A stretch of DNA of 64,000 nucleotides, taken from assembly GCA_013423385.1 (NCBI GenBank), contig BLZA01000023.1:251782-315781 (forward strand). Reading direction: 5' to 3'. Below, piece by piece: positions 31,469-36,050 of the stretch. How positions within the stretch are numbered: position 1 is the first letter of the stretch; every line of letters begins with the position of its first letter. The notes under the pieces are model-generated. The model did no database searches, had not been told where the DNA came from, and saw only the letters and a list, made by a program, of their open reading frames with translations. The DNA comes from Naganishia liquefaciens (taxonomy: Eukaryota > Basidiomycota > Tremellomycetes > Filobasidiales > Filobasidiaceae). A program made the translations under genes and the position numbers.

Positions 31469-31836
31469 TCAATACGTCTTTCCCCCTCCCCGCAGACCAT
31501 CCAATCCCTCCCTCATGGTATCCGCCCCCCCTGCGGCGACCTTATCCCCCGCCTCGGTCCTCCTCTCGACGCCACCCGACGTTGTGGTGGTAGCCCCCGT
31601 GGCGGCATTATGTTGGGCCTTGGGAGTCGAATCGACAGCCGAGTCGGCAAAGGAGTTGATGTTGCCTCGGATAGCATCGCCGAGGCCTAAAGAGTAGCAA
31701 CAGTTGAAATGTCAGTTAGAGTGGAAAGAGGGATCAGGTGGGGAGACTTGCCGCCGACGACTTTGGCAGAGTCCTTGACCATGTTGCCGAGTGATGATCC
31801 GGCGTTTGAGCCTGTGCTGGTGTGGGTGCTGGACAT
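31469..31836 (-). CDS. Small Ser/Gly/Ala-rich hypothetical protein
   Basis: Two exons (31752-31836 and 31469-31686) give 100 residues in phase. It reads MSSTHTSTGSNAGSSLGNMV, KDSAKVVGGLGDAIRGNIN, SFADSAVDS, then a Thr/Ala/Gly-rich stretch and REGLDGLRGGGKTY. It has no signal peptide, membrane helix or Cys. The composition resembles small hydrophilic stress-related proteins, but no family is recognised. The intron has a GCAAGT donor (31746-31751 on the minus strand). An in-frame region upstream (ATG-like start at 31989) is not needed. Confidence 0.55.
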
Positions 31837-32255
31837 TGCGGATGTAGAGTGTGCGTCTGTTGCACTGCTATGCGATATGTTGTCTCTCGACAGAGTATAT
31901 GCTGACTGTCTGCGAGGAGATGAGTGTCGTGTCGTCTTGCCTACGTGGCTGGCGGGGATCGACCAATGGTCCCGCCCTGAAGAGCGCAAGACGGTGTCAG
32001 AAGTGGACCCAGAATGACATCATCGCTTTTTGATGCAGAAAACACCAAGTCTGCGCGAGCCACAGAGGGGCATTTACGACCCGTTTGAAGATCAATTCTA
32101 GGTCTCCGCGGGCATTCAAGCTCTCCAATCCGCAAGCAATCGGGCGAGTCGAGGATGTCTGCTTCATTCATTCATTCATTCATTCCCAGTCAATTCGACT
32201 TTCTGCTTCGACTGTTTCCTATCCCAACCTCGTCTCCTTCCCTCTCCCCCCAGCC
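31837..32255. promoter_or_regulatory. Divergent region upstream of the tyrosyl-tRNA synthetase
   Basis: About 420 bp separate the small hypothetical gene and TYS1 start codons. The region contains a short ATTC microsatellite at 32163-32185 and a pyrimidine-rich stretch immediately before the TYS1 ATG. Confidence 0.4.
32163..32185. repeat. ATTC/TTCA tetranucleotide microsatellite
   Basis: Five to six uninterrupted TTCA units lie about 70-90 bp before the TYS1 start, probably in the 5' leader. The copy number may vary between strains. Confidence 0.7.
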
Positions 32256-34028
32256 ATGTCCGCCCAGCCGCCCAAGCCCGCTCCCATCGTCCTCTCTCCC
32301 GAGGCACAAGCCACATTCGACCTTATCACCCGTGACCTCGATGAAGTGCTCTTGCCCGAAATCATAAAGGAGAAGCTCGCGAACGGGGAAGTCGTCAAGT
32401 GTTACTGGGGCACGGCCCCGACAGGTCGTCGTATGTATCTCACCGCCGCGGCTGTGTGTATGCTGGCTGACAAAGTTGATGATGGAAAGCGCATTTGGGA
32501 TACTTTGTCCCGTTGACCAAGATTGCAGACTTCTTAAAAGCTGGTGTCGCTGTCAAGGTTCTTCTCGCAGGTAAGCCTCACTTTGTACATACATCTCTTC
32601 TCTCGCTAACGTTGACTCCTCAGACGTAAGCCTCAACCTCAACATCGCCGCGAAATCCCTCTTACACCCATTCTAGATCCACGCCTTCCTCGATAATGGG
32701 AAATCCACCTACGAAACCGTCGCCCATCGGGTCTCCTACTACTCGAAGCTCCTGCACGCCATCTTCACCTCGCTCGGCGTCCCCACGGATAAGCTCAGCT
32801 TTATTACCGGCAGTGATTACCAGCTGAGCAAGGAATACAGCTTGGACAACTTCCGGTGGGTGGGGTTCTCTTTCCTCGAAAACACGAGCTTTTTGCTGAC
32901 TGGTGGGTCCTCCGCGGTATTGCAGATTATGCGCCTTGACGACGCTGCATGACGCGACCAAGGCTGGTGCCGAGGTCGTCAAGCAGATTGAATCGCCATT
33001 CCTGAGTAGCTTGATGTACCCGGGCATGCAGGCGCTCGACGAGCAGTACCTCGACGTTGATTTCCAGTTTGGCGGGGTCGATCAGGCAAGTCAATGGACA
33101 CCGGACGTTATAGAATATGCGCGACTGATCATACAATCCAACCCTGACAGCGTAAAATCTTCACCATGGCCCAGGAATATCTTCCGAAACTCGGCTACAA
33201 GAAGCGCGCCCATCTCATGAACCCGATGGTTCCCGGTCTCGCCGGCGGCAAAATGTCCTCGTCCGATCCCAACTCGAAAATCGATTTTCTCGATTCCGCC
33301 GCCGACGTAAAGAAGAAGATCAAGGTCGCTTTTTGCGAGCCGACCAACATTACCGAAAACGGACTCTTGTCGTTCCACAAGGCCGTTCTCGTGCCGATTC
33401 AAATGATGCGACGCGGCCAGATGCTCGATCGTGGCGAGGATCCCGAAACGCCTGCCGCGAGGGCCGCGATGGGCATTCACCCGGATTCACCGGCGGGTAC
33501 CGTCATCAGCGTCATGCGCGACGAAAAGTGGGGCGGACCGATGTACTACCCCTCCTACGCCGCCATGGAATCCGCCTTTGCGGCTGACGAATTGAAGCCG
33601 GCTGATCTGAAGCTCGTCACCGTGGACATGATCAATGCGCTGTTAGATCCGATACGAAGGGCGTTTGAGGGTGACGACGAGTGGAAGCAAGCCGAGGCGT
33701 TGGCGTACCCAAAGGAAGTTCCGGCGCCGAAACAGCCGAAAAAGACCAAGGTGAGCTTATCAAGCTGGCGCGCATGACCAGGGAATGTGGCTGACCGGGG
33801 GGATCTTGCACGAACAGAAACCCAAGGAGAAGCAGGTCAGGCCGAACGCCGAAACATTTATCGAAAAGTCAAAGCAAGCTGCTACGGAGAACGTCGAGCC
33901 AACGATCGAGGGCGTTGCTGTGAGTTGACTCTTCGAACACCTCTGGATTTCGAATCACTTATACTACTTGTTAGCCCCCTCCAGCAGCAGCCATTGTTGG
34001 TGATGTCCAGCAGTTGTCCCTGTCATAG
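32256..34028 (+). CDS. TYS1: Cytosolic tyrosyl-tRNA synthetase
   Basis: The enzyme charges tRNA-Tyr. Eight exons (32256-32430, 32490-32570, 32624-32625, 32677-32855, 32926-33085, 33151-33750, 33818-33919, 33975-34028) give 450 residues. Class I motifs are present: [20 protein letters not shown] with the HIGH-type HLGY at residues 60-63, and [15 protein letters not shown] with KMSSS at 233-237. [40 protein letters not shown] and [18 protein letters not shown] are typical of eukaryotic cytosolic TyrRS. The Asp of LLADIHAF is encoded across a 2-nt exon (AC). The intron after VDQ starts with GCAAGT at 33086. The last intron was placed because it replaces a premature GTGAGTTGA end by [17 protein letters not shown]. 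There is no mitochondrial presequence. Confidence 0.95.
32624..32625 (+). other. TYS1: 2-nt micro-exon of TYS1
   Basis: The dinucleotide AC sits between a CTCAG acceptor and a GTAAGC donor. The flanking introns are 53 nt (32571-32623, with a GCTAAC branch) and 51 nt (32626-32676). Without these two bases the codon for Asp86 is lost and the frame shifts. Confidence 0.75.
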
Positions 34029-34101
34029 TTATATGAAACGTATAGTCATACAGCAGACATGTACTACTCCTTTCCGCCGGGTCGGCTTTTTGTTTGCGAC
34101 A

Positions 34102-36050
34102 CTAGTCATCGTCCAGTTCCATCTCGGATTCAGAATCCGACAACATGTCGCCCCTTCGCTGTTGCACAGGAGACGGCGATCGACGGGGCGCCGGCGGCGG
34201 TGTCGGTGACCGTCGAGCAGGAGCAGGGCTGGGCGACTTTCGCGTAGCCTTTTCGAATCGGACGGGTGACCGATCGGCCATACGTCCTTCCAGAGTCTGC
34301 TTCCTCCCGACCCGCCAGTCATCCGTGTCAACCCTGGCCCTGTCTCTTGACCGCGACCTCGCTCGTCGTTGCCCCTCATCTCGCCTCGGCGAGAGCTCTC
34401 GTCGCCAACGGTCGCCGCGACTTTGAGCGCGAGCATCATCCCGTCCTCCCTGCCTGTCTCCATACCTTGCTTGGCTGTCTCGTCCAGCATCGCCGCCGTG
34501 GTGTCGCGCATGGTAGGGCCTCTCGGGTCGGGGAACACCATCGTATGCCCGCGGTCGACCGAAATAACGGTCAGTGTCAGCAAACGAGCCGCGGTTCGAC
34601 TGAGTTTCGGGATCCCTGTATTTCATGGCGCCTCGACCTAAAAGGCACGTCAACTGGTGTTTCTTGATGGCCATTGGGGACAACCAACCTCGGTAAATCA
34701 CGCCGCCATCGGGTCGTTTCTCCTCTTCCAGCTGTTTCTTGAGCCTTTCCATCTTTTCCTTTTTGGCAGCAGCTATCCTCTCGTTTTCCTCTCTCTCGAG
34801 TCTGTGAGACACGTGGTGTATCAGGCACAGCTCAAAGCGGCTGGCGGCAGACATACCTGGCATCCAGCTCCTCCTCAGTCTCCTGATATCCACCAACCAG
34901 ACTCTTCAACTTATCCTTCTTTCCATCCCTGTCCCGCTTCTTGTCCTTTTTCTTAGACTTTTTCTCCTTCTTTCGCCGACGACGCTCATCCTCGGAATCC
35001 GATGCCGACGAATCACTGTCACTGCGCGTCGATCGCCTCTTGCGTCGAGGCGATCTGGAGTCGGTAGATGAGGGTGATACCGAGCGACGCGCTAAGAGTC
35101 GCGCAGGGTCAGGTTACGACAGCCAAGCAAGCTTTATCGAAACGTACACTCCGCCGCCTTTGCTGGTTGAGCCTTCTTCGCCAACACTAATTCTCCACAA
35201 TTGACAATGGTAACAGGAGACAGTGGTCGATCCCTATCATCAACTTGAAGTAATTCCCAAGCTTGTACGTGCTCGAAACCTGTCGCGGGAGGGGGCACGT
35301 ATCAATTAGCTGGCTCGATACAAGCACGAAACCAATCTGCACACCTCGGACGACCCGGCCGAAAACACTGAGTAGGAATAGAAGTAAGAGGCGTGTGTAA
35401 GCTGGAGTCTCTCCTAACTTACCAGTGCTTGCCATTGAGATGGGGAGAGGGTGCAAAGGTAATGAAAAACTGCGACCCATTTGTGTCTGGTCCCCGATTA
35501 GCCATGACTAGCAACCTGCGGTCATCCTCGTCAGATCAAGAAATAGCCTCGAGCGTTGGGACCTACCCTTCCTTGTCTACCGGCGTCGAAAGATCTTCAT
35601 CCGCGAACTGGCCACCATAAATCGATTCACCCCCTGTACCGTTTCGCTTCGTGAAGTCTTGCGGGAGAAACATATCAGGAAAGATATAATGAGCAGCGAA
35701 TGAGTGGCTTACCGCCTCCTTGTGCCATGAATCCGGCTATGTGTAGTCATCATCTCAGTAACTGCAGGAACTAACATGCGCGACAGCACTTACGAATCAA
35801 ACGATGTATGATGCTCCCCTTGTAATGCAATGCCTGTTGTGACAGCCTCGAGATTCCCTTTTCTCCAGTACACAACGCTCGGAAGCTGGGTAGATTTCGG
35901 CAAGTCAGGGGTAGCAATGCAGAGGCTTAGGCATGATGCTTACTTCTCCGCTGTCTTGGGTACCTTGTCGACAAAGAGCTCGAAGATGATCCGTTTGGGC
36001 GGGGCGTCCCCGACGGACACGTCCATGAAGGTTCGAACGGGTGGAGCCAT
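34102..36050 (-). CDS. Nuclear cyclophilin with Arg/Ser-rich tail (peptidyl-prolyl isomerase)
   Basis: The N-terminal cyclophilin domain starts [20 protein letters not shown] then [20 protein letters not shown]. Its blocks include [74 protein letters not shown] and [19 protein letters not shown], so the active-site residues (R, F, M, Q, F, H of the family) appear kept. The C-terminal half is very basic and acidic by turns: [38 protein letters not shown], a helix [19 protein letters not shown] and an RS/RD region with [19 protein letters not shown]. This layout is that of PPIG/SR-cyclophilins associated with splicing. At least eight exons; the junctions are not all fixed. Its end lies 73 bp from the TYS1 stop. 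Confidence 0.88.

Follow-up and report, generated by a model that had tools for sequence, protein, structure and literature searches.

A predicted two-nucleotide exon completes a conserved aspartate codon in the tyrosyl-tRNA synthetase gene of Naganishia liquefaciens

The window, i.e. the whole stretch of 64,000 nucleotides (64 kb) that was analysed, has a GC content of 53.1% and carries a gene for a cytosolic-type tyrosyl-tRNA synthetase (TyrRS) on its plus strand, which we rebuilt from the letters of positions 31600-34600. The encoded protein matches the Pfam family PF00579 (E 4.7e-57), and its closest solved structures are those of yeast (2dlc) and human (1n3l). When it was compared with its own genome (19,446,910 bases in 28 contigs), all six matching pieces were located at the TyrRS locus. 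Further pieces of PF00579 were identified on contigs C6 and C17. Among their loci only L006 resembles TyrRS, and this weakly (38% over 55 residues). An Rfam scan of the window at gathering scores and a tRNA scan of the window gave no match. Five tandem ATTC units are located at 32166-32185, about 70-90 bases 5' of the TyrRS start codon.

Coding exon 1 starts with the ATG and spans 32256-32430, as indicated by the gene model and by homologues. It is followed by a GT-AG intron of 59 nt (32431-32489) and by coding exon 2 (32490-32570), the last codon of which is incomplete (GCA G, phase 1). The large exon that follows at 32677-32855 begins in phase 0 with ATC CAC GCC (ATCCACGCC from 32677). Downstream of it, the gene model consists of a GT-AG intron of 70 nt (32856-32925), a coding exon (32926-33085), a GC-AG intron of 65 nt (33086-33150) with the donor GCAAGT after CAG and the end GACAG, a coding exon (33151-33750), a GT-AG intron of 67 nt (33751-33817), a coding exon (33818-33919), a GT-AG intron of 55 nt (33920-33974) and the final coding exon with the TAG stop (33975-34028). 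In order, the intron lengths across the gene are 59, 53, 51, 70, 65, 67 and 55 nt.

The second and third of these introns result from a phase problem. The phase-1 donor after GCA G faces the phase-0 acceptor before ATC CAC GCC, so that the codon of Asp86 is short by two bases. Within the 106-nt gap between exon 2 and the next large exon, the sequence CAG-AC-GTAAGC supplies the bases AC at 32624-32625. They complete GAC and are coding bases between an acceptor AG and a donor GT, required for the reading frame. The intron 5' of AC (32571-32623, 53 nt) starts with GTAAGC, ends with CTCAG and contains a branch-like CTAAC at 32606-32610, the A of which is 14 nt from the 3' end. The intron 3' of AC (32626-32676, 51 nt) starts with GTAAGC as well, ends with TTCTAG and contains a branch-like CTTAC at 32661-32665, with the A 12 nt from the 3' end. 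Each of the two thus has a donor, a branch-like motif, an acceptor and a length resembling the other introns of the gene. AG ends occur at four places in the interval (32575, 32623, 32630 and 32676), and AG-A[CT]-G[TC] at a single place, 32622, which is also the only one within 32560-32690. AC at 32624-32625 is therefore the only in-frame exon of two nucleotides with canonical sites that makes Asp86. With AC the coding sequence comprises 1353 nt, i.e. 451 codons including the stop. The letters that the first-pass annotation had given for the donor, the CTCAG end, AC itself and the TTCTAG end were confirmed, as was its span 32571-32676, and its two intron lengths and its codon count agree with the rebuilt gene.

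For comparison, we listed all single introns of the type GT-...AG or GC-...AG with a length of at least 31 nt, a donor at 32500-32699 and an acceptor up to 32759 that keep the frame open. The existence of 18 such joins, one of them equal to the join in the public model of N. adeliensis, speaks for one intron with another donor or acceptor and a protein slightly unlike its family. None of the 18 restores LLADIHAF, which upholds the earlier statement that only AC restores GAC and this block. In all 18, at least part of VKVLLADIHAF is deleted or replaced, which damages a block that is free of indels in 155 of 160 fetched homologues. Their donors (GTCAAG, GTTCTT, GTCGCT, GTCCCG, GTACAT and GC types) are also poor compared with GTAAGC. 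If exon 2 is joined straight to the ATC exon, the reading frame gives LLADPRLPR and ends at codon 92, and this direct skip of AC would be an intron of 106 nt versus 51-70 nt for the seven modelled introns of the gene. By arithmetic, the frame would also be kept by a middle exon lengthened by 21 or 24 nt and ending before the GC at 32647 or 32650, but this leaves introns of only 30 or 27 nt. A single intron is thus very unlikely. An error of the sequence or the assembly, with bases missing or extra and one plain intron in truth, appears less likely still. Against it stand the donor, branch-like motif and acceptor present in each of the two introns, and the models of both relatives that reach the spot, which are gapped as the same phase mismatch predicts.

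For an estimate of chance, the 106-nt interval was shuffled 20,000 times with dinucleotides kept and the first six and last three bases fixed, and matches were allowed to start between positions 25 and 75. In addition, an intron grammar (GTRNGY, CTNAY, YAG, 45-90 nt) was applied to both strands of the 64-kb window. As the patterns and the grammar were written knowing the site, the figures are guides rather than clean tests: YAG-A[CT]-GTRAGY was found in none of the 20,000 shuffles, YAG-A[CT]-GTRNG in two and the bare AG-A[CT]-GT in 196, and among the 151 candidate introns of the window (75 on the plus and 76 on the minus strand) only one pair lies 1-12 nt apart, namely the pair flanking AC.

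The conservation of the spot was analysed in an alignment of 160 fetched proteins, which comprise the best 120 of 5597 and the best 120 of 524 and are neither a full nor a random sample. Asp is present at residue 86 in 157 of these 160 homologues, and the TyrRS of yeast (2dlc) and human (1n3l) carry the same Asp. The remaining three are gapped, and these are the three Naganishia models. Indels in residues 78-96 were found in five of the 160 proteins (P0001, P0002, P0008, P0116 from Termitomyces and P0154 from Rhizoctonia solani), which is above the usual number for stretches of 19 residues within residues 45-287 (median 1/160), yet not the highest (8/160, at residue 45). P0003, with 62% identity, is intact at the spot, like 155 of the 160 homologues overall. 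P0154 has 19 extra residues near the block and P0116 (Termitomyces sp.) has 18. In both cases the extra residues look like translated, i.e. retained, introns.

The genus Naganishia belongs to the Filobasidiales within the Tremellomycetes. Among the nearest proteins are those of N. adeliensis (P0001, 84% identity in the search and 90% in the alignment) and N. onofrii (P0002, 80% and 81%). The protein of N. cerealis (P0008, 301 aa) shows 81% and 82%. The best 120 of 524 proteins from the second search (residues 14-160) include no further one from Naganishia. The three Naganishia proteins are models, of which P0001 and P0002 have a gap at the spot and P0008 is cut short there. In P0001, KAGVA is joined to IHAFLD and VKVLLAD is absent, which is identical to the single-intron alternative 32552-32676 of the window. 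Here, a gene finder with a phase-0 acceptor before ATC and without an in-frame donor may have fallen back on GTCAAG. In P0002, VLLA is joined to DNGK and DIHAFL is absent. If canonical sites are assumed, the simplest reading would be that a phase-1 donor behind GCAG was paired with a late acceptor which ends in the G of a GAT codon. Such a join would imply Leu TTA or CTA before GAT, where the window has CTC. P0001 thus points to the phase-0 acceptor and P0002 to the phase-1 donor, i.e. the same mismatch as in the window. P0008 begins with MTTLHDA, downstream of the spot. The gapped and truncated models appear to give good but indirect support for the micro-exon. A gap alone does not prove it, since P0001 is also gapped over an ordinary exon stretch: an exonic GT...AG stretch of 48 nt (33622-33669) is absent from the N. 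adeliensis model, probably due to a false intron call. The tags of the three models are alike (QFC19, QFC20 and QFC24), and the models may come from one pipeline.

The proposal of a two-nucleotide micro-exon is backed by the phase, the sole canonical site, the failure of all 18 alternatives and the three Naganishia models. It is very probable that the TyrRS gene contains a real, constitutively included exon AC which completes a conserved Asp codon and whose flanking introns are removed sequentially by intron definition. AC is probably constitutive and common to the genus Naganishia. That annotation software misses such an exon was borne out by the models of N. adeliensis, N. onofrii and N. cerealis, and the public TyrRS models of the first two are without residues of the conserved block. 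Models of sister species that break at one conserved residue may be a route to more such exons.

Short introns, like those of 51-70 nt in the TyrRS gene, tend to be spliced by intron definition, with the intron recognised as a unit. Both short introns flanking AC would be recognised in this way and leave in succession, as a two-base exon could hardly accommodate the complexes of a 3' and a 5' splice site together. Either order of removal would lead to the same mRNA. The second donor is preceded by GAC with the first intron present or gone, and the first acceptor is always followed by AC, so that the adjoining letters impose no order. An RNA hairpin joining the splice sites was considered and rejected: the fold of 32561-32690 is ordinary (z -0.28), and 73 of 200 shuffles fold at least as well. 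From the features of the locus we infer the splicing of the micro-exon itself as well as its order, constitutive use and origin.

Four mis-spliced products were modelled. Skipping of AC leads to a stop at codon 92, and retention of the first, the second or both introns to stops at codons 154, 103 and 105, respectively. As all four stop early, these products give no second full-length TyrRS isoform. The first-pass annotation had suggested that two-step splicing or skipping could make an essential enzyme tunable, but this found no support beyond the early stops of the modelled products. At most, mis-splicing at AC could have an on-off effect via RNA decay or unproductive splicing, and nothing speaks for it. 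A valve in which the inclusion of AC is switched to set the TyrRS level via unproductive splicing would be compatible with the two-nucleotide exon and would make use of the four early stops. Frame-shifting mis-splicing, however, commonly yields early stops, the RNA structure is no better than chance (z -0.28) and both introns have the donor GTAAGC, so that regulation of this kind appears quite unlikely.

A hint on the age of the two introns comes from P0116 of Termitomyces, in which the 18 extra residues stand before DVHAF, with GKP at their start and K at their end. We deduce from this one protein that the insert may be a retained phase-1 intron of 54 nt, starting with GTAAGCC inside the same Asp codon. 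If this reading is right, the intron before AC is old and common with an agaricomycete, and the intron after AC is a later gain. The older intron would then probably be the one in front of AC, and the one behind it would have been added alongside, possibly by local duplication. Both donors begin with the 10-mer GTAAGCCTCA (32571-32580 and 32626-32635), 55 bp apart. In the 19.4-Mb genome it occurs in 30 copies (15 per strand) versus 19 for the pattern read backwards, and, as extrapolated from 30 GTAAGC in the window, CTCA follows about 0.3% of GTAAGC. If the duplication reading is true, this rare shared 10-mer would be its trace. The overall likeness of the two introns is reached by 1138 of 2000 shuffles that keep the 6-nt donor. 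Local duplication is thus possible and only a suggestion, as the likeness outside the ten shared bases is no greater than in shuffles. The further-reaching view that a duplicated phase-1 intron was fixed in the Naganishia ancestor and that its two-step removal limits and sets the TyrRS output via unproductive splicing is unlikely.

Several known systems resemble this site. In recursive splicing with a zero-length exon, an acceptor is directly followed by a donor and nothing is retained in the mRNA. At the TyrRS site, AC lies between acceptor and donor, which sets it apart from a zero-length exon. Stepwise removal and a donor adjoining an acceptor are common to the TyrRS site and to recursive splicing as far as it is described in the accessible parts of PMC4674806, whereas at the TyrRS site the mRNA is predicted to retain the AC bases, and the flanking introns measure only about 50 nt. 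In the stwintrons of fungi, one of the splice signals of an outer intron is interrupted by a second intron inside it (PMC9024468, PMC12403724, PMC5639578, each in part). Two consecutive splicing reactions at one site are shared with them, and two neighbouring introns removed in sequence, as in the described stwintrons, would fit such an arrangement. However, there is no split signal at the TyrRS site, where two exonic bases stand between complete GTAAGC donors and YAG acceptors, and a stwintron is exceedingly unlikely. Our search of the full-text literature found no work that treats stwintrons together with microexons.

Exons of one nucleotide have been described in the plant genes APC11 and VPS55 (PMC8831610, PMC4674806), and, like AC, these ultra-small exons were overlooked by annotation. 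According to the accessible parts of these papers, they comprise one base and have support from RNA-seq, RT-PCR or reporter constructs, whereas AC is predicted from sequence, and VPS55 also has forms without its 1-nt exon. For Arabidopsis, intron definition was regarded as more plausible, and removal of one intron after another was suggested as a possibility (PMC4674806). Known exons of Arabidopsis, Drosophila and humans include some of 2-5 bp, as mentioned in the introduction of PMC12940212, so that the size of AC alone is no record. The notion that such exons are at the limit of what spliceosomes can define is weakened by the 1-nt exons already documented in Arabidopsis, other plants and Fusarium. 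A full-text literature search, which covered few subscription journals, found neither a fungal 2-nt exon described before nor, in basidiomycetes, any nuclear exon of 1 or 2 nt, and the accessible parts of PMC13149111 and PMC8042270 contain nothing on 2-nt exons.

The setting of AC is that of yeasts with short introns. If confirmed by RNA, the exon would be a natural test of the removal of introns two bases apart in an essential, highly conserved enzyme. By sequence criteria, it seems to be a further case of the rare, already described ultra-small exons and ordinary in function. A similar case is CYP621A of Fusarium, for which 20 orthologues are described to have a 1-nt exon that the authors called the first for a fungal gene, and two species contributed 18 reads (PMC12940212, in part). 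Both are nuclear genes of fungi with a phase mismatch in a conserved motif and wrong gene models, and in both the exon lies inside an apparent single long intron and was found by comparing relatives. In Fusarium, the exon is a single base in the middle of a Gly codon of a P450, observed in 18 SRA reads, whereas the TyrRS exon, predicted here from genomic letters, comprises two bases of an Asp codon in a tRNA synthetase of a basidiomycete.
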